From Chitinophagales bacterium (GTDB taxonomy: Bacteria > Bacteroidota > Bacteroidia > Chitinophagales > CAIODY01): a DNA stretch of 46,638 nt. The position numbers and the translations under genes were made by a program. Each line of letters opens with the position of its first letter. The stretch's first letter is position 1. The notes beneath the pieces were generated by a model that was not told the DNA's origin, did no database searches, and saw only the letters and a list, made by a program, of their open reading frames with translations. Positions 16,618 through 36,641 of this stretch are shown here, one piece after another. The DNA lies in the NCBI GenBank assembly GCA_947452995.1, contig CANGEV010000019.1:1-46638 (forward strand), given 5' to 3'.

Positions 16618-17568
16618 TTATTTACTGATTGCTAACATCCGTTCAATGGAAGCAGAAGCCGCAACCCTCAAAGCCTCATCTAGAATGATTTCCGGACTTT
16701 CATCCCGCAAGCAAAGATAGATCTTCTCTAAAGTATTCAATTTCATATGCGGACAATCATTACACGCGCAGTTCGCATTCGGTGGCGCAGGAATAAACTC
16801 CTTATCCGGAGCAGCTTTCCGCATTTGATGCAAAATGCCCGACTCTGTAACTACTATAAACTGCTTCTTTTCCGACTGCAACGCGTAATTCAAAATAGCC
16901 GTTGTACTGCCTATAAAATCTGCATGGTCTAAAATAGCCGCCTCACACTCTGGATGGGCCAATACCTCCGCAGCTAGATGACGCTCCTTCAAACGCAATA
17001 ATTTCTCTAATGAAAAAATTTCATGTACCATACAGGCCCCATCCCATAACACCATATCCCTGCCTGTCTTCTTCTTCAAATAAGCCCCCAGATTACGATC
17101 CGGAGCGAAAATAATTTTCTTATCCTTCGGAATGCTTTCAATGATTTTCTCCGCATTGCTAGAGGTGCATACAATATCCGTTAATGCCTTAATCGCTGCA
17201 CTGCAATTAATATAACTCACCACTACATGATCCGGATGCTTATCCTTAAAAGCTTTGAATGCCTCCGGCGGACAGCTATCCGCCAACGAACACCCTGCTG
17301 CCATATCGGGTAAAATCACTTTTTTAGTAGGTGAAATAATCTTGGCCGTTTCTGCCATAAAATGCACACCCGCAAATAAAATGATAGAAGCATTCGTCTT
17401 GGCCGCCTCTTGTGACAACTGTAAGGAATCGCCTATAAAGTCTGCGATATCCTGAATATCAGCATCCTGATAATAATGCGCTAGGATAACAGCGTTCTTC
17501 TCCTTTTTTAATCGAGCTATCTCTTCAAATAAATCTAATCGTGGATCAATCTCAAGTCCTGTTGACAT
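16618..17568 (-). CDS. nadA: Quinolinate synthase NadA
   Basis: 316 residues, normal length for the shorter NadA type. It condenses iminoaspartate with dihydroxyacetone phosphate to quinolinate in de novo NAD synthesis, using a [4Fe-4S] cluster. Signature segments are [52 protein letters not shown] and [14 protein letters not shown]. The expected cluster ligands are Cys93, Cys179 and Cys272. nadB and nadC are not in the window, so the gene stands alone here, separated from the two-component genes by a terminator. No NadR/NrtR-type site was recognised upstream. Confidence 0.96.
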
Positions 17569-25594: not shown

Positions 25595-25688
25595 AGTTTA
25601 AATAAGGTTTTGTAAATTCATCTTGTATTGCTAATTTAGCAAATACACTATTTTTCAAAAATAATAAAAGCCGTCGCAAATACCAAGT

Positions 25689-25718
25689 TTTTCCACATTA
25701 TCTGAGTAATTATACACA
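25689..25718 (+). other. Two consensus DnaA boxes upstream of the ECF sigma gene
   Basis: TTTTCCACA (25689-25697) and TTATACACA (25710-25718) both fit the E. coli-type consensus TTWTNCACA with no mismatch and share an orientation, 12 bp apart. They lie in the 204-bp gap between two divergent genes, 1.5 kb left of the proposed origin. They may be part of an extended origin region or may regulate the sigma gene. Confidence 0.4.
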
Positions 25719-25732
25719 ACTCAGTTTTTTTT
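25702..25732 (+). terminator. Terminator-like hairpin with T8 in the 5' region of the sigma gene
   Basis: CTGAGT (25702-25707) pairs with ACTCAG (25719-25724) and T8 follows. No plus-strand gene precedes it, because the neighbour to the left is on the minus strand. It could therefore end a short RNA or act as an attenuator for the sigma factor gene. Its loop contains one of the DnaA boxes. Confidence 0.45.
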
Positions 25733-25798
25733 ATCTAAACGGCTCTCTATCGATTCTTCGATACACTTAGTTTTTTTATTAACCTCAAAACAATTAGT

Positions 25799-26371
25799 AT
25801 GCAAACACTAAGTGATCAAGATTTGATTGCCCTTTATCAAAATGGCCAAGAAAGCTGTTTTGAAATTATTTACCATCGTCATAAAGACAAAATCTTTTTT
25901 TCAATTTTAGCCAAGATTGGAGATAATGATATTAGTAATGACGTTTTTCAGGAAACCTTCATAAAAATCATCGATAACATAAAAAAGAAAAATTACGATG
26001 AAAAAGGGAAGTTTATAAACTGGGCTTTAAGAATCGCAAACAATGCCTGTATGGATCATTATCGATCTATTCAACGTAAACGAATCAATTATGTGGAAAA
26101 TGAAACTATTTTTCTAAAAATTGAAACAGATTTAAATAGTAGTGTTGAAAATCAGTTAATTAATAGAGAATGTTCCACAATGATGCATACTCTTCTGAAT
26201 TACCTGGATGAAGATCAAAAAACAGTATTATACCTACGCTATTTTGAAAAATTAAGCTTTTTGGAAATAGCTACTAAAACTGGTATTAATGTGAATACCT
26301 GTTTAGGTAGAATGAGATACGCATTAAAAAATCTTCATAAAATAATGCTCGAAAAAAAATTAGAGCTCTGA
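25799..26371 (+). CDS. ECF-type RNA polymerase sigma factor
   Basis: 190 residues. Sigma region 2 has ALYQNGQESCFEIIYHRHKDKIF, SNDVFQETFIKIIDNI and INWALRIANNACMDHYRS. Region 4 has LDEDQKTVLYLRYFEKLSFLEIATKTGINVNTCLGRMRYALKNL, a helix-turn-helix that recognises the -35 element. It directs RNA polymerase to a small regulon. No FecR or other anti-sigma gene is adjacent. The next open frame is a 49-residue protein 53 bp downstream. In Bacteroidota, ECF factors of this size without a partner are often expressed constitutively. Confidence 0.93.
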   Translation: MQTLSDQDLIALYQNGQESCFEIIYHRHKDKIFFSILAKIGDNDISNDVFQETFIKIIDNIKKKNYDEKGKFINWALRIANNACMDHYRSIQRKRINYVENETIFLKIETDLNSSVENQLINRECSTMMHTLLNYLDEDQKTVLYLRYFEKLSFLEIATKTGINVNTCLGRMRYALKNLHKIMLEKKLEL

Positions 26372-26424
26372 CAAAATAAAAGCATAAGGTCAAGCGTTTA
26401 TTATCTAAACCACCATCCCCGCCT

Positions 26425-26574
26425 ATGCTTAAATTTTACCAACAACTATTTTTGAAATACACATTTAATGGCTTTCAAAAAAATTCTTTTCAACCAGTTC
26501 TTCCTCAAAAAGCTAGTATCAAAAAGCAAACAGAACAAGCTATCTTAGCATATAGTAAGCTTTTGTTAAACTAG
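26425..26574 (+). CDS. Possible small protein between the sigma factor and nth
   Basis: 49 residues, ATG at 26425, TAG at 26572-26574. The sequence begins MLKFYQQLFLKYTFNGFQ and ends QAILAYSKLLLN: basic, with two short amphipathic helices and no membrane segment or motif. I recognise no family. The next gene, nth, begins 4 bp after the stop, which is operon-like spacing and favours translation. It could be chance in AT-rich DNA. Confidence 0.4.
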   Translation: MLKFYQQLFLKYTFNGFQKNSFQPVLPQKASIKKQTEQAILAYSKLLLN

Positions 26575-26578
26575 CACT

Positions 26579-27220
26579 ATGACTAAAAAAGAACGTTACA
26601 CGTTTATTCTTGATTATTTTGAAAAACACAATCCATCTCCCGAAACAGAATTATTCTATACCAACGGTTTTGAACTTGTTGTTGCTGTTAGTCTTTCTGC
26701 TCAGTGCACTGATAAACGTGTTAATCTGGTAACGCCAGCCCTTTTTAAAAAATTTCCAAGCCCTGAACTTTTAGCAAAAGCTTCCTTCGAAGAAGTTTTT
26801 AAACTCATTCGATCCATTTCCTACCCCAATAATAAGGCTAAACACCTCATTGGAATGGCTGAAATGCTCGTTAATAAATTTAACGCTGTAATCCCCGATA
26901 ATCTAAACGACCTTATCCAACTACCAGGTGTAGGTAGAAAGACTGCTAATGTGCTTCTTTCGGTCCTTTACAATCAAAATACAATGGCTGTGGATACGCA
27001 TGTCTTCCGGGTAAGCCACCGACTCGGTTTAGTAGCAAAGACAAAAAAAACACCTCAAGCAGTCGAATTAGAACTTTACAAACACATTCCCGCAGACAAA
27101 ATACCTTTTGCACATCATTGGTTGATTTTACACGGTCGTTACACGTGCCTCGCCCGCAGCCCCCTCTGCCCCTCTTGTCCTTTCCAAAATTTTTGTCCTT
27201 CTGCACATCGTAATCTATAA
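26579..27220 (+). CDS. nth: Endonuclease III (DNA glycosylase/AP lyase)
   Basis: 213 residues, the usual length. The helix-hairpin-helix LPGVGRKTANVL carries the catalytic Lys121, and Asp139 stands in VDTHVFRVSHRL. The C-terminal [4Fe-4S] motif is C-x6-C-x2-C-x5-C (Cys190, 197, 200, 206). It removes oxidised pyrimidines and cuts at abasic sites in base excision repair. The plus strand here is still C-rich (hand count 53 G to 79 C over 26581-26940), in contrast to genes to its right. It ends at the left edge of the proposed origin. Confidence 0.97.
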   Translation: MTKKERYTFILDYFEKHNPSPETELFYTNGFELVVAVSLSAQCTDKRVNLVTPALFKKFPSPELLAKASFEEVFKLIRSISYPNNKAKHLIGMAEMLVNKFNAVIPDNLNDLIQLPGVGRKTANVLLSVLYNQNTMAVDTHVFRVSHRLGLVAKTKKTPQAVELELYKHIPADKIPFAHHWLILHGRYTCLARSPLCPSCPFQNFCPSAHRNL

Positions 27221-27590
27221 TTACTATTATTATTTAAATAATCTTATCATTATTATTATGCTGTGGAAATGTAGAATAAGTTTTTTTAAAAAAGGGGTTT
27301 TCTATTCTTTTTTGACTTTACCAACATGTTATTTTTCTTGTTGTTTATTTCTAAGTTCGTATATATCGAGGTTTACACTGTTTATTAACTATGGTGGATA
27401 ACGTTGAATGTGTATAGTGAGTACGTCATTTTTTTTCACTTTTTCTGGTTCTTACTGTTGATTTCATTGTTGTAAATCACTACTTATTAGACGTTTTGTT
27501 TTCAAACACTACATTTGATTTTTATAGTGTGAATTAGTAGCCCTTATTCCACACGTTATACACCACTTATTAACTGTATATACACAGGTT
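27221..27590. other. oriC: Candidate chromosomal replication origin (oriC)
   Basis: 370 bp without a gene, very AT-rich. The left end (27221-27260) is almost pure A/T with ATT-triplet runs, as in a DNA-unwinding element. Six 9-mers differ by one base from TTWTNCACA: minus strand ATTTCCACA (27262-27270), TTATCCACC (27393-27401), CTATACACA (27409-27417); plus strand TATTCCACA (27545-27553), TTATACACC (27556-27564), ATATACACA (27578-27586). The 9-mer TTATTAACT occurs twice (27382, 27568). The strand bias of G over C changes sign in this neighbourhood, mnmG and dnaN lie to the right, and two parS-type sites follow within 4 kb. Exact limits are not determinable by eye. Confidence 0.65.
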
Positions 27591-28262
27591 ATGGAACTTA
27601 AAGAAATTGCGCAGTTGCTCAATGAGAAACATCAAACTCGTGAGCTAATCATTAATAATGCTCGTACCCAGTTCGATTCTTTTAAGGAACGTATTATTGA
27701 GTTTGTAACCAATCTTAATAAAGAACCTGCAACAAAAGATTTTCTTAGTTATAAGTTGAATGGCGATTTCGAGTTACAATTATTCTTCTGTGGTGAAGTT
27801 CTTATTTTCTCACTACACACTGATATGTTTATGTTTGACGATTCTCATTTTGTACATAATTTAAAATATGTCAAGGATGATCGTTCAAGATCTTATTGCT
27901 GTATAATCAAGGTTTATAATTTTCTTTTAGATTCTTTTCAATTCAATCGTCTTTATGATGTAGGGTACTTAATTGGTAGGGTGTTCATTAATAAGGACAA
28001 TCACTATTTCGTGGAAGGAAAACGTCAGCTTGGTTTCCTTTATAATGACTTTGAAAATGCGGAATTTAACGCTGTCAATCAAACACGTTTGGTAGAATCT
28101 TGTTTGCTCTATGCCATGGAATTTGATCTTTTAGTTCCTCCCTTTGATGAAGTAAAAGAAATACCTCTAGGTTTAAAATTAGAACAGCATGGTAATGCTG
28201 CTATTAAAACTGGTAAACGACTTGGTTTTAGGTTTAATGCAGATACTGACGTGACAGATTGA
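27591..28262 (+). CDS. Conserved hypothetical protein next to the origin
   Basis: 223 residues, soluble, no signal peptide. The N-terminus is an acidic helix (MELKEIAQLLNEKHQTRELIINNARTQFDSFKERI) and the core is alternating beta strand and helix with many aromatic residues (FCGEVLIFSLHTDMFMFDDSHFVHNLKYV, GRVFINKDNHYFVEGKRQLGFLYNDF). I do not recognise the family. It is followed by an RsbW-like ATPase gene whose start is 14 bp downstream, and by mnmG. A degenerate DnaA box ends 4 bp before its ATG, so DnaA could influence its expression. Confidence 0.75.
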   Translation: MELKEIAQLLNEKHQTRELIINNARTQFDSFKERIIEFVTNLNKEPATKDFLSYKLNGDFELQLFFCGEVLIFSLHTDMFMFDDSHFVHNLKYVKDDRSRSYCCIIKVYNFLLDSFQFNRLYDVGYLIGRVFINKDNHYFVEGKRQLGFLYNDFENAEFNAVNQTRLVESCLLYAMEFDLLVPPFDEVKEIPLGLKLEQHGNAAIKTGKRLGFRFNADTDVTD

Positions 28263-28708: not shown

Positions 28709-28724
28709 TGTTCCACGTGTAACA
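28709..28724. promoter_or_regulatory. parS: Candidate parS site 1
   Basis: TGTTCCACGTGTAACA fits TGTTNCACGTGNAACA at all 14 specified positions, the known ParB-binding consensus in its palindromic form. It starts right after the RsbW-like gene's stop codon and ends 8 bp before the mnmG start. It is about 1.1 kb from the proposed origin. Confidence 0.8.
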
Positions 28725-28732
28725 ATTTTTTT

Positions 28733-30592
28733 ATGCAATCAACGTACGATGTAATTGTAGTTGGTGCAGGGCATGCAGGCTGTGAAGCTGCTGCTGCTGC
28801 CGCCAATATGGGGTGTTCTGTGCTATTAATCACAATGAACATGCAAACTATCGCTCAAATGTCCTGTAATCCTGCCATGGGTGGTGTTGCAAAAGGTCAG
28901 ATTGTTCGAGAAATAGACGCTTTAGGTGGCTATTCTGGTATTGTATCAGACAAAAGTATGATTCAATTTAGAATGTTGAATCGTTCTAAAGGTCCGGCTA
29001 TGTGGTCCCCTCGAACACAGAATGATAGAATGTTATTCGCTTCAACGTGGAGGGAAATGTTGGAACAAACCCCTAACGTTGATTTCTGGCAGGATACGGT
29101 TAGTCATCTATTCATTGAGGATGGTAAGTTACGAGGGGTAATAAGTGGTTTGGGTATTACGTTTAGATCAAAAACTGTGGTTCTTACTAGCGGTACCTTT
29201 TTGAACGGAAAGATACATATTGGTGAAAAGCAGTTTGGAGGTGGTAGAATGTCTGAGCCTGGTGTGTATGGGTTGACTGAACAACTTGTTGATTTAGGAT
29301 TTCAATCTGATCGTTTGAAGACAGGAACACCTCCTCGTATCGATGGTAGATCTATCGATTATTCTAAAACAGAAATTCAAGAAGGTGATAAGGAAATTGT
29401 TGGGTTCTCTTATATGCCGGTCGACAAGCCTAAGACGCAACGTTGTTGTTGGATTACTTATACCAATCAGGACGTTCATGATATTCTTAAAACTGGTTTT
29501 GATAAGTCGCCGATGTATGCTGGTCGGATCGAAGGAGTGGGTCCTCGCTATTGCCCGAGTATAGAGGATAAAATCAATCGATTTGCTGACAAGGATCGTC
29601 ATCAGCTTTTTATCGAACCTGAAGGTTGGAATACAGTTGAAATTTACTTAAATGGTTTTAGTACTTCTTTACCAGAGGATGTTCAATTAAAGGCATTAAA
29701 ATTAATTCCTGGCTTAAATAACGTAAAATTGTTCAGACCTGGCTATGCAATTGAATATGATTACTTTCCGCCTACACAATTAAGTAAAACATTAGAAACC
29801 AAGCTTTTAGAAGGTCTATTTTTTGCAGGTCAAATAAATGGTACAACTGGCTATGAGGAAGCCGCTTGTCAAGGAATTATGGCTGGAATTAATGCTGCAC
29901 TTAAGGTTAATTCTAAGCCTGAATTTATATTAGATAGGTCAGAAGCCTATATTGGTGTTCTTATTGATGATTTAATTTCAAAAGGTACAGAGGAGCCATA
30001 TCGAATGTTTACCTCCAGGGCTGAGTTCAGAATGTTGTTACGTCAGGATAATGCCGATATTAGATTGACAGAAAGATCACATTCGATTGGCCTAGCTACA
30101 GACGAACGTTTTTCTTTAATGTCGAAGAAGCGTGAAGATGCTAAGGATTTGTTTGGGTTTATGGAGCAACATAAATTGGAGCCATCTGATGCTAATGATT
30201 TTTTAGTTGAACGTAATTCTGCACCATTGTCGCAACGTCAGAAGCTGGGACAGTTAGTTCTTAGGCCTAATCTTGGTATTAATGATTTTCGATTTTTTCC
30301 GTTGATCAAAGAGAAGTTGGATACACTAACAGACGCCTCGATAGAGTACGCGGAGATAGAGCATAAGTACAAGACATATATTCAGCACGAAGTAGAATTG
30401 GTTGATAAAATGAAGCGTTTGGAGCATTTAAAACTTCCTGATAGCTTGGATTATCGTTCGATTCAGTCGTTAAGTATGGAGGGAAGAGAGAAGTTGTCGC
30501 GGGTCAAGCCAGCAACATTGGGTCAAGCCAGCAGAATTAGTGGTGTAAGTCCTTCAGATATTTCCGTTTTAATGATCTTTATTGGTAGATAA
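28733..30592 (+). CDS. mnmG: tRNA uridine-5-carboxymethylaminomethyl synthesis enzyme MnmG (GidA)
   Basis: 619 residues, normal length. FAD-binding Rossmann motif [15 protein letters not shown] at about residues 5-19; further family marks are [51 protein letters not shown], and [18 protein letters not shown]. With MnmE it modifies the wobble uridine of certain tRNAs. Historically gidA is a neighbour of the replication origin in many bacteria, which fits the region at 27221. The plus strand is G-rich here (hand count 94 G to 65 C over 28741-29100), in contrast to nth. The next gene begins 1 bp after its stop. Confidence 0.98.
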
Positions 30593-30999: not shown

Positions 31000-31015
31000 T
31001 GTTACACGTGGAACA
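31000..31015. promoter_or_regulatory. parS: Candidate parS site 2
   Basis: TGTTACACGTGGAACA is the exact reverse complement of site 1 at 28709 and fits TGTTNCACGTGNAACA at every specified position. It fills the 20-bp gap between two convergent stop codons (30995 and 31016). Confidence 0.8.
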
Positions 31016-32842: not shown

Positions 32843-35402
32843 TTTCAGAACGGAGAATTTCATCAAGCATCGACTTAACCACCATCAAACGATCTTGGTC
32901 TTTTCCTTCGTCGTACTTTTTCTTAAAGCGTGCAACAGCACGGTATGCTGCTTCCCTGGTGTCTTCCTCTTTATTTTGGATGGCAACTGCAGTTAAAATA
33001 TTGAGCCCCTTTTCAATTAAGTTCTCTGGCATACGGAAAAGATAGTCTGCAAAATTTTTAATAAAAGCATCGTTGATTTTGCTTTTAGGATTTTTCAAAC
33101 GCTCTTCGAAATAAGGATAATTTTCCGGCGTGCCTTTCTGACCGTATAAGTAAGATACCGCCCCGGCAACAGTTTTGTTTGTTTCCTTTTCTAAATAATA
33201 TGCTTCACGTAATGAAGCTAGAACATTTACATGCATGAGTGCTAAAAGCGAACTGCTGATTACTTCATAAGAAGAATCCTTACAACATTGAACAAAAACA
33301 TCTTGACACTCGAAGCATTTCATTTCACCTAAATTGTCAATCATTTTTGAACGTACCATACAGCTTTGCTCTTCTTTGATCTGGTCGAGCGTTGCATTAA
33401 TCGCAATGGTACGCATTAATGAATCACGTGTTTTTAGATGGTCGTTCGTCCATTCACGGATATAATCGTTTTTATCTGTAAGTCCGTTTAGATAGAACTC
33501 ACTCAGGTTTTGATCTTTACCTTGAAAATCAGCTGCGTATTTTATGGCTTCTAATCGATCTTGGAATGTGCCGACGTGATTGTATTTGTAGGAAAGTTCT
33601 TGTACGGAGAAATCTTCTTTTTTTACGAGTGGCAATGTATGATCCGCATCTGTATTTATGAAGAGTGGTTTTGCTTTTAGTTGAAACTTGAACTTTTGGT
33701 ATTTACGATTCACCCAAACTTTTTCCGTTTGTTTGCCAAGCAGGGTATAAAATTCAAAGGTGAGTGGAAATTCAAAGCGGTCGAGGGAAGGAGCTTCTTG
33801 CATTTGTTCCACGAGGATCGAAACGCTTTGGGTAGAGTCGATATATTTTTTGGTAAAACGCAAAACAGGGTGACCAGCAGCATACCACCATTGATCGAAG
33901 AAAAGGCCCCAATCTTTTCCGGTTATTTCTTCAGCGCAACGTTGAAGGTCGGTCGGACAAGCATTTTTATAAGCAAAACGATTTAAATATAAATTTAATG
34001 TTTTAAAGAAAGCTTCGTCGCCCATTTGTTGGCGGAGGGCATGAATCACGAGTCCGCCTTTTTGATAATTGTGTGCATCGAAAAGTTCAACTGGTTCTTT
34101 ATAATAATGACGCACGATAGGATAGGTGGCGCCGTTAGCTGTTTGTGAAAAATAGGTTCTACGATCTTGCTCGCGGCCTGCTTCAGCTTTTTCAATTCCG
34201 TAGGCGTATTCATTCCATAGGTATTCGCCATAAGTAGCAAACGACTCGTTCATAGTGAGGTTGGTCCAGGAGTCGGCGGTAGCGAGGTCGCCGAACCATT
34301 GGTGGAAAAGTTCGTGTGCGATCACTTCTTCGAAATTGCGGTCGAGGCGTTCGCGCGAAGTTTGTTGTAAAAATTCACCATGGATAGTGGCAGACGTATT
34401 TTCCATGGCGCCACTTACATAATCATGAACCACCACTTGATCATATTTAGGCCAAGGGAAATCATAGTTGAGGCGACGGCTGAAGCATTCAATCATTGCG
34501 GGTGTTTTCCCAAAAATTTCCGGAAGGTATTCTTGGTATTGGATATCCCCGAAATAATGAAGCGGCATATTTCTCCATTGGTCGTCTACTTGAAAGAAGT
34601 CGCCGATGGCCATCATGAAAAGATAGGGGCTATGCGCTTGTGTCATTTTCCAAACGTCTGTTTCGCTATGGTCATTGTTGACGATGGTATAGCATTTCGT
34701 TCCGTTAGAGATGGAGATCATTTCAGCCGGGCGGGTGATAAACATGGTTTGGGTGCACTTTTGATTGGTTTCATCAAATGTAGGGAACCAGCAAGAGGAG
34801 GCTTGTGGCTCGCCTTGTGTCCAGATTTGTCGTGGCTTGTCGGGATCGCTGCCATCGGGGTTGATGAAATATAGTCCACGGTCGTCGCTGATAGCGGAGC
34901 CACCTCCTAGCCGGCGTTCATAGGGTTTGGCGGTATATTGAATAAATACATGTAGGGTGTCTTTATTGGTAAAGGTTTGTGGTAATTGAATTTTTAATCG
35001 GAGGGAGTCGTAGGAGAAGTTAAGATTAACGGAGTCTTTGTTTTGGAGTAACGCGATGCGATGGACATCGAATCCTTTCGCATCGAGGGTTAGGGTGTTT
35101 TGCGGATAGAAATGTGGGGTAAGCGTGAGCGTTGCTTTTCCAAAGAGGCGACGTTTTTTCCAATCGAAGGAAACGGCTAGTTTGGTATGAATGAGATCAA
35201 AGCTTTTTTCACCTTGTCCTTTATAGGTGATGAAGGCTGCTTCGTTCAGGCGTAGGGTGTCGAGGGTATAGGTAACGGCTTGCGTTAGGCTATCCTGGGC
35301 GATGGTGTTTTGTTTAGATTTTTGATGTCGCCCAAATTGACAGGCAGCGGATAATAGAAGCAGGGCAAAAGCGACGATGTATAAACGAGATGAATTCTTC
35401 AT
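32802..35402 (-). CDS. M1 family metallopeptidase (aminopeptidase), lipoprotein
   Basis: 866 residues. The signal peptide ends at a lipid-site Cys21 (LLLLSAAC). The M1 domain has the exopeptidase motif GAMEN at about 331-335, the zinc motif HELFHQW with His363, Glu364 and His367, and the third ligand in NESFATYGEYLW. A C-terminal helical domain (about 600-866) looks like the HEAT-like cap of the family. It would trim amino acids from peptides outside the inner membrane. The plus strand is G-rich here although the gene is on the minus strand (hand count 67 G to 51 C over 34261-34500). Convergent overlap of 41 bp with the cyclophilin gene. Confidence 0.95.
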   Translation of the reverse strand: MKNSSRLYIVAFALLLLSAACQFGRHQKSKQNTIAQDSLTQAVTYTLDTLRLNEAAFITYKGQGEKSFDLIHTKLAVSFDWKKRRLFGKATLTLTPHFYPQNTLTLDAKGFDVHRIALLQNKDSVNLNFSYDSLRLKIQLPQTFTNKDTLHVFIQYTAKPYERRLGGGSAISDDRGLYFINPDGSDPDKPRQIWTQGEPQASSCWFPTFDETNQKCTQTMFITRPAEMISISNGTKCYTIVNNDHSETDVWKMTQAHSPYLFMMAIGDFFQVDDQWRNMPLHYFGDIQYQEYLPEIFGKTPAMIECFSRRLNYDFPWPKYDQVVVHDYVSGAMENTSATIHGEFLQQTSRERLDRNFEEVIAHELFHQWFGDLATADSWTNLTMNESFATYGEYLWNEYAYGIEKAEAGREQDRRTYFSQTANGATYPIVRHYYKEPVELFDAHNYQKGGLVIHALRQQMGDEAFFKTLNLYLNRFAYKNACPTDLQRCAEEITGKDWGLFFDQWWYAAGHPVLRFTKKYIDSTQSVSILVEQMQEAPSLDRFEFPLTFEFYTLLGKQTEKVWVNRKYQKFKFQLKAKPLFINTDADHTLPLVKKEDFSVQELSYKYNHVGTFQDRLEAIKYAADFQGKDQNLSEFYLNGLTDKNDYIREWTNDHLKTRDSLMRTIAINATLDQIKEEQSCMVRSKMIDNLGEMKCFECQDVFVQCCKDSSYEVISSSLLALMHVNVLASLREAYYLEKETNKTVAGAVSYLYGQKGTPENYPYFEERLKNPKSKINDAFIKNFADYLFRMPENLIEKGLNILTAVAIQNKEEDTREAAYRAVARFKKKYDEGKDQDRLMVVKSMLDEILRSETSARLKERYKQDF

Positions 35403-35484
35403 AAAATGTGCAGAAAGTGTTCAAAAGTACGAAAGCCTGTTGAAAATATACGGATGATACTTTTTAATGAATGAAGAATGGGGT

Positions 35485-35492
35485 TATCTTTG
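35485..35492 (+). promoter_or_regulatory. Probable -7 box of the dnaN promoter
   Basis: TATCTTTG fits the Bacteroidota -7 consensus TAnnTTTG and lies 28 bp before the dnaN ATG, which gives a leader of about 21 nt. A clear -33 TTG was not found at the expected distance. Confidence 0.5.
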
Positions 35493-35519
35493 TTAATAAT
35501 TATTAGAAAAACCAGATTC

Positions 35520-36641
35520 ATGCAATTTATCGTATCAACAGGCACATTGTTAAAGCAATTACAATCCATCAGTGGTGTTGTATCTTCTAACACGATTTTA
35601 CCGATCGTAGAATGTTTCTTATTTGACATTCGTAAGGGAGAATTGGTATTGGCGAGTACTGACTTAGAAACATCGATGATTACTACGATTCCAGTGGAGT
35701 CGAAGGATGCATGTAAGGTGGCTATTCCTGCGAAGCAGATTTTGGAAATTTTAAAAAATTTACCAGAACAGCCATTGACGATTAAGGTAGAAAAAGAAAA
35801 TTATGGTGTGGAGATAGCGAGTGAGAATGGTCGTTATAAATTGATGGGAGAAGATGGAGAAAACTTCCCGAAGATCACGCAGCAAGAAGGTACAGATGAG
35901 GTGAAAGCTGCATCGGGTGTTATTTTGCGTGCCATCACCAAAACGATGAATGCAATTGGTAACGACGAGATGCGTCCGGCAATGAACGGTTTGTATTTTC
36001 AAATGACGCCAGAAGGAACCCATTTCGTTGCAACGGATGCGCATCGTTTGGTGAAGATGACGCGTAGCGACATGACCTTTAAAAATTCAACGAGCTTTAT
36101 TGTTCCACGTAAATCAGTATCGCAGTTGAAGATGATGTTGCCTAACAATGATAGTGAAGTAAGCATTGCGCATGAGAAAGGGAATGCATTTTTCAAGACG
36201 GAGAGTATGCTATTGGTTTGTCGTTTGATTGATGCGAAGTATCCTGACTATCAAGCGGTGATTCCGGTAGACAATCCTTCTTGTTTGACGATTGAGAAGG
36301 AGGAGTTGATGGGGACTTTGAAGCGTGTTCAAATTTTCGCGAACAAGACAACACATCAAGTGGCGTTTAAATTAGCTGGAAGTTCTTTACAAATTTCAGC
36401 ACAGGATTTAGATTTCTCTAACGAGGCGAAAGAGACTTTGACTTGTGAATTTAATGGCGATGATATGGAGATTGGTTTTAACTCGAAGTTTATGTTAGAG
36501 ATGTTGAATAATGTCGACACGAAGCAGATTCGTTTGGAGTTGAGCACGCCGACAAGAGCGGGTGTATTGACGCCGGATGTGCAAGAGGAGAATGAGAGTT
36601 TGTTGATGTTGGTAATGCCAATTATGATCAACAATTATTAA
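35520..36641 (+). CDS. dnaN: DNA polymerase III subunit beta (sliding clamp)
   Basis: 373 residues from the ATG at 35520. An in-frame ATG at 35478 would add 14 residues and include the promoter, so it was rejected; MQFIVSTGTLLKQLQSISGVV is the family start. Three repeated clamp domains follow, with PIVECFLFDIRKGELVLASTDLE, LPEQPLTIKVEKE, MNGLYFQMTPEGTHFVATDAHRLV and the C-terminal SLLMLVMPIMINNY. It tethers the replicative polymerase to DNA. dnaN usually lies close to dnaA, but dnaA is not in this window. Followed by an intrinsic terminator, so it is probably monocistronic. Confidence 0.97.
   Translation: MQFIVSTGTLLKQLQSISGVVSSNTILPIVECFLFDIRKGELVLASTDLETSMITTIPVESKDACKVAIPAKQILEILKNLPEQPLTIKVEKENYGVEIASENGRYKLMGEDGENFPKITQQEGTDEVKAASGVILRAITKTMNAIGNDEMRPAMNGLYFQMTPEGTHFVATDAHRLVKMTRSDMTFKNSTSFIVPRKSVSQLKMMLPNNDSEVSIAHEKGNAFFKTESMLLVCRLIDAKYPDYQAVIPVDNPSCLTIEKEELMGTLKRVQIFANKTTHQVAFKLAGSSLQISAQDLDFSNEAKETLTCEFNGDDMEIGFNSKFMLEMLNNVDTKQIRLELSTPTRAGVLTPDVQEENESLLMLVMPIMINNY

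Follow-up and report, generated by a model that had tools for sequence, protein, structure and literature searches.

Where does chromosome replication start in an uncultured Chitinophagales bacterium whose dnaA and mnmG genes lie on different contigs? In Bacteroidota origins are mostly known through skew-based prediction, and genome records often start at dnaA. The draft genome comprises 36 contigs with 2,542,930 bases; the window, the whole stretch of DNA analysed here, is its complete contig C19 of 46,638 nucleotides. In a tree of MnmG sequences the source groups with Chitinophagaceae and other Chitinophagales, and the closest named MnmG is ~70% identical. The original prediction placed an origin without an adjacent dnaA in the gap after nth, with mnmG and dnaN nearby, and Pfam confirms both of these genes. 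Our analysis indicates that this gap is very probably the replication start, and its location is well supported. The gap and the genes around it are the following.

26579-27220, plus strand: nth, endonuclease III, the left flank (TIGR01083 above cut-off)
27221-27590, no strand: probable oriC, an intergenic region with the putative unwinding element at its left end and DnaA boxes further right, marked by the skew minimum, 73% A+T and box density
27591-28262, plus strand: uncharacterised 223-aa protein, the right flank (no Pfam or NCBIfam match)
28733-30592, plus strand: mnmG (gidA; PF01134, E 3e-164)
35478-36641, plus strand: dnaN, sliding clamp (PF00712, PF02767, PF02768)

Computed over the window, the cumulative G-minus-C curve has its minimum at 27248, within the gap. 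The plus strand had been described as C-rich to the left and G-rich to the right regardless of gene strand, and the skew at third codon positions agrees with this on both strands. Left of the gap it amounts, in plus-strand reading, to -0.354 for minus genes and -0.340 for plus genes; right of it the values are +0.309 for plus genes and +0.378 for minus genes. As transcription could not bias genes of both orientations in one direction, the bias is a replication signature. Of the hand counts on which the prediction was based, those of 53 G/79 C, 42/60 and 94/65 are exact, while the count for 34261-34500 is 66/51 and not 67/51. The neutral bias assumed near 25.8-28.4 kb is approximate, with values of -0.11 (26-27 kb), -0.05 (27-28 kb) and +0.18 (28-29 kb).

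Sixty stretches from contigs C1-C31 were sampled for skew and DnaA boxes, which together with the window cover 1.2 of 2.54 Mb. The skew of C19 swings from about -0.22 to +0.19, and no other contig in this sample has a strong minus-to-plus switch or a skew minimum that would point away from the gap. The gap thus lies at a minus-to-plus switch, as an oriC does, with about half of the genome sampled. C1 drifts from plus to minus, opposite to C19 and terminus-like. The dnaA gene is located on C26, and the encoded DnaA bears the GGRDHSTV DNA-binding signature; skew declines steadily along C26, and a minus-to-plus switch was not found on this contig. The locus is hence not a dnaA-linked oriC of the B. 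subtilis type, and a genome record started at dnaA would be wrong for this genome. In the relative G025, which is assembled in two contigs, skew is negative to ~1.34 Mb and positive past 1.345 Mb, and mnmG is located at 1.348 Mb; in the complete relative G050 the skew is too noisy for a decision.

The gap itself was described as gene-free, very AT-rich and furnished with six near-consensus DnaA boxes, all of which agrees with our data. It holds no ORF of at least 90 aa, and Rfam and tRNA scans gave no match anywhere in the window. Of all stretches of 370 bp examined across 1.2 Mb, just 0.4% reach the A+T content of the gap. Eight sites have at most two mismatches to TTATCCACA, compared with a mean of 1.8 in the shuffled gap (P ~0.0005). 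When the box search was extended beyond the window (TTWTNCACA, at most one mismatch), the gap proved to be the densest of all 370-bp stretches in the 1.2 Mb sampled, an intergenic DnaA-box cluster as in oriC. The enrichment is one of local clustering only, the near-box total of the whole window being 148 observed versus 149 expected. A perfect DnaA box was found in the gap neither by matching to TTATCCACA nor in a genome-wide search for TTATNCACA, so perfect matches offer no argument for affinity. Six of the boxes are conserved.

27262-27270, minus strand: proximal DnaA box ATTTCCACA, two mismatches to TTATCCACA, inside an invariant 45-bp block
27393-27401, minus strand: DnaA box TTATCCACC, one mismatch, 8/9 conserved
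27409-27417, minus strand: DnaA box CTATACACA, 9/9 conserved
27545-27553, plus strand: DnaA box TATTCCACA, 8/9 conserved
27556-27564, plus strand: DnaA box TTATACACC, 9/9 conserved
27578-27586, plus strand: DnaA box ATATACACA, 9/9 conserved

The comparison was made with G002, a sister species with identical gene order, whose gap aligns without gaps at 77% identity; G001 is a third, divergent congener, and G003 and G004 represent the sister genus. Across the six boxes 52 of 54 positions (96%) are kept in the sister species, whereas the remainder of the gap, with boxes and 45-bp block excluded, is 71% identical. The gap also contains four CACTA/TAGTG motifs, at about 27413, 27479, 27507 and 27532, which are retained in the sister species and possibly form a site for another origin-binding protein.

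At the left end of the gap, the proximal box is part of a candidate unwinding module with these elements.

27215-27259, no strand: candidate DNA unwinding element with triplet repeats, very AT-rich, placed alike with respect to the box in G001 and G002
27245-27259, plus strand: candidate DnaA-trio array 3'-TAT TAT TAT TAC TAT-5', five central-A triplets, separated from the box by GC
27270-27278, minus strand: degenerate tandem distal box TATTCTACA, three mismatches, aligned in other families with better distal boxes of the TTATCCA type
27243-27287, no strand: invariant block, 45/45 identical in two congeneric genomes (the window genome and G002)

On the minus strand the block reads TATTCTACA-TTTCCACA-GC-ATAATAATAATGATA; beyond it the sequence stays very AT-rich as far as the stop codon of nth. 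The 3' end of the proximal box points at this AT-rich DNA, and a putative unwinding element (27215-27259) thus stands beside a DnaA box (27262), as expected of oriC. According to a loose definition, a basal unwinding system (BUS) has a box with at most two mismatches, a spacer of 0-16 and at least three NAN triplets (PMC8287927), and ATTTCCACA, the GC spacer and the five triplets conform to it. Trios in the strict form applied in PMC7561715, more than three 3'-[G/A]A[T/A]-5' triplets after a GC cluster, are not present at 27245-27259, where the triplets read 3'-TAT-5'. Trios are published in the orientation 3'-GAT-5' on one strand, the box strand then reading 5'-CTA-3' (PMC8235120); for C. difficile the trio is given as 5'-CACCTACTACTATTACTACTATGA-3' (PMC7561715). 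In several relatives a single good trio (5'-CTA-3') adjoins the box. The spacer between box and triplets measures 2 bp in the window and 3 bp in most relatives. Taken by itself, the loose-trio pattern is frequent, with 112 matches of at least four triplets in 1.2 Mb. As a bare scan with the loose BUS definition does not discriminate, conservation and proximity to mnmG were used as criteria.

The region around mnmG contains two parS sites, which had been predicted to lie within 4 kb of the gap.

28709-28724, no strand: parS site TGTTCCACGTGTAACA, exact, directly upstream of mnmG, in the same place in most relatives
31000-31015, no strand: parS site TGTTACACGTGGAACA, exact, downstream of mnmG

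Both are perfect 16-mers, where 0.02 would be expected in the window by chance; genome-wide there is one further exact site and one with a mismatch. The TGTTNCACGTGNAACA 16-mer near the probable origin is accompanied by a ParB encoded on C12, as expected for parS. At most Bacteroidota loci examined, parS is found ~20-140 bp upstream of mnmG and often again ~1.86 kb downstream (parS-flanked loci L092-L171 and L172-L191). Since parS flanks mnmG in most loci, mnmG belongs to a conserved segregation block, relative to which the distance and side of the origin differ between lineages. The gene for the 223-aa protein was considered as an origin marker and rejected: homologues occur in 27 of 60 relatives, where the gene context is mostly a different one, and in several of them the gene follows another one, reading as prolyl-tRNA synthetase.

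Several other Chitinophagales families possess equivalents of the module, with the form ATCCACA-GCC-CTAATAAT, in clusters of DnaA boxes no more than 15 kb from mnmG. G003 and G004 have 14-15 clustered boxes ~2.8 kb upstream of mnmG; within the cluster stands TAATCCACA-GCC-(C/T)TAATAAT, followed by AT-rich DNA. The pattern WTNCACANNNHTAATAAT (WTNCACA-NNN-HTAATAAT) has 53 matches in 61 genomes, 12 of them within 15 kb of mnmG compared with ~0.5 expected by chance. These 12 come from families f1, f4, f9, f11, f19 and f21, and two further exact-motif matches (f3, f13) are on the same contig as mnmG at 35-39 kb. A sequence-only profile (R1), from which an exact motif at 1314463 of G025 lacking an AT-rich element was excluded, detected the module near mnmG in eight non-training genomes (G007, G009, G024, G026, G032, G036, G039 and G050). 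On named mnmG loci R1 matches Chitinophaga solisilvae and, in the Cytophagales, Algoriphagus, Roseivirga, Runella, Dyadobacter and Cyclobacteriaceae MAGs; most Cytophagales matches lie ~4.2-4.8 kb downstream of mnmG, within a local box cluster. In 14 of 25 loci the third-codon skew minimum is at most 2 kb away from the module. A second profile (R2), built without the genus of the window, matched the congener G001 (C98) directly after nth with an E value of 4e-8. With 0.007 the window's own site is the best match of its genome, barely ahead of a chance match at 0.025, and it was not reported in a smaller search of the window. This weak match marks the window copy as a diverged example of the module.

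The recurrence in Chitinophagales and Cytophagales, at least two orders, leads us to favour, with some reserve, a single ancestral opening module consisting of a DnaA box, GCC, CTAATAAT and a TTTAAA-rich element, which would have moved relative to its flanking genes while staying near parS-mnmG and uncoupled from dnaA. If this is true, the module would represent a form of the basal unwinding system peculiar to the phylum and would serve as a sequence tag for origins in draft genomes.

A serious, if less likely, alternative is that the origin is in C19 but opens through a generic AT-rich element with an E. coli-like architecture, TAATAAT being merely DNA of low stability. In E. coli, oriC (gidA/mnmG-mioC) lies beside mnmG and not beside dnaA, with an AT-rich element on the left and an R1-type box (TGTGG..) on the right, whose 3' end is directed toward the AT-rich DNA. 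The window shares the adjacency to mnmG; its neighbouring genes differ, and it has parS, which E. coli is not known to have. An R1-like box oriented toward the AT-rich element and a degenerate trio register speak for generic opening. Against it, box, GC spacer and CTAATAAT recur beside mnmG in several families with their spacing and sequence, neither of which is required by plain AT-richness.

The origin could also be centred elsewhere within a few kb or be bipartite over 25.6-27.6 kb, which we consider improbable. The stretch 25601-27600 contains 21 near boxes, the most among 5,424 windows of 2 kb, and a second gap (25595-25798), 1.5 kb leftward and upstream of an ECF sigma gene, has two boxes that match TTWTNCACA perfectly at a distance of 21 bp.

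25689: perfect DnaA box TTTTCCACA in the 25595-25798 gap
25710: perfect DnaA box TTATACACA in the 25595-25798 gap

The matching gap of G001, however, has no perfect boxes, and both the unwinding module and the skew minimum are at 27.2 kb. The second gap is possibly an auxiliary DnaA site. That 27221-27590 is only an AT-rich promoter gap with chance boxes, and that replication really starts close to dnaA or on a stretch outside the sample, is very improbable: the gap must indeed also contain the promoter of 27591-28262, and there is a perfect box upstream of dnaA (C26:4149), but C26 has just three clustered boxes there and no skew switch, no other sampled contig flips, and the conservation of the boxes in the gap is far above background.

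The unique skew switch among the sampled contigs, the densest boxes, the switch-free C26 and the flip at mnmG in G025 support the predicted oriC without adjacent dnaA. We therefore regard it as highly probable that 27221-27590 is oriC, located beside mnmG and parS and far from dnaA; judging from its sequence, it would be opened in the BUS manner from the leftmost box. We infer DnaA binding, duplex opening and origin activity for this region, and the architecture at 27215-27259 suggests the following mechanism. DnaA supplied from the distant gene on C26 would load on the box cluster (27262-27586). From the leftmost box (27262-27270, minus strand), which faces left, a DnaA oligomer could extend onto one strand of the triplet repeats, along 27245-27259 and onward to ~27215. 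By stretching the bound strand it would open the duplex at 27215-27259 and permit helicase loading. ParB at the parS sites around mnmG may then move or separate the newly copied origins.

Origins near mnmG have been predicted with Ori-Finder in Flavobacteriaceae, namely Mariniflexile (PMC11278836) and Algorimicrobium/Bizionia (PMC12843772). As in the window, these origins lie by mnmG with GC skew agreeing (PMC11278836, PMC12843772), and for Mariniflexile the origin is stated to be away from dnaA (PMC11278836). In contrast to our locus, they belong to another order and are Ori-Finder predictions, and the passages covered do not describe an unwinding module (PMC11278836, PMC12843772); the recurrent box-trio module and the parS context are documented in the present analysis. 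The basal unwinding system is known from B. subtilis and others (PMC6669920, PMC8287927) and has been called widespread (PMC8287927). Tandem DnaA boxes, a short GC spacer, triplet repeats and an AT-rich element are shared with the B. subtilis type (PMC6669920, PMC8287927), and in relatives also the box strand with CTA-type triplets. The window differs in that its origin does not adjoin dnaA, its box-strand triplets are degenerate (5'-ATA-3') and its distal box is poor. In the literature covered, with most subscription journals and DoriC outside the scope, we found no description of the module or of an origin in Chitinophaga. Both an oriC near mnmG and the BUS are thus already known, and the newest part is possibly a phylum-specific form of the module. 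A conserved module adjacent to parS-mnmG would provide a precise origin coordinate and aid coverage-based growth-rate methods in uncultured bacteria. It also carries the question whether opening by DnaA-trios is ancestral over to a phylum with dnaA and oriC apart.

Two further observations concern the gene context in relatives. The G001 assembly breaks ~300 bp past nth, at the origin (end of G001:C98, L262), and its HATPase-mnmG side is on a separate contig (end of G001:C238, L172). In several relatives nadA adjoins the DnaA-box cluster (L173, L174, L182, L187), while in the window nadA (16618-17568) lies ~10 kb from the probable origin, as if the intervening genes had been inserted.
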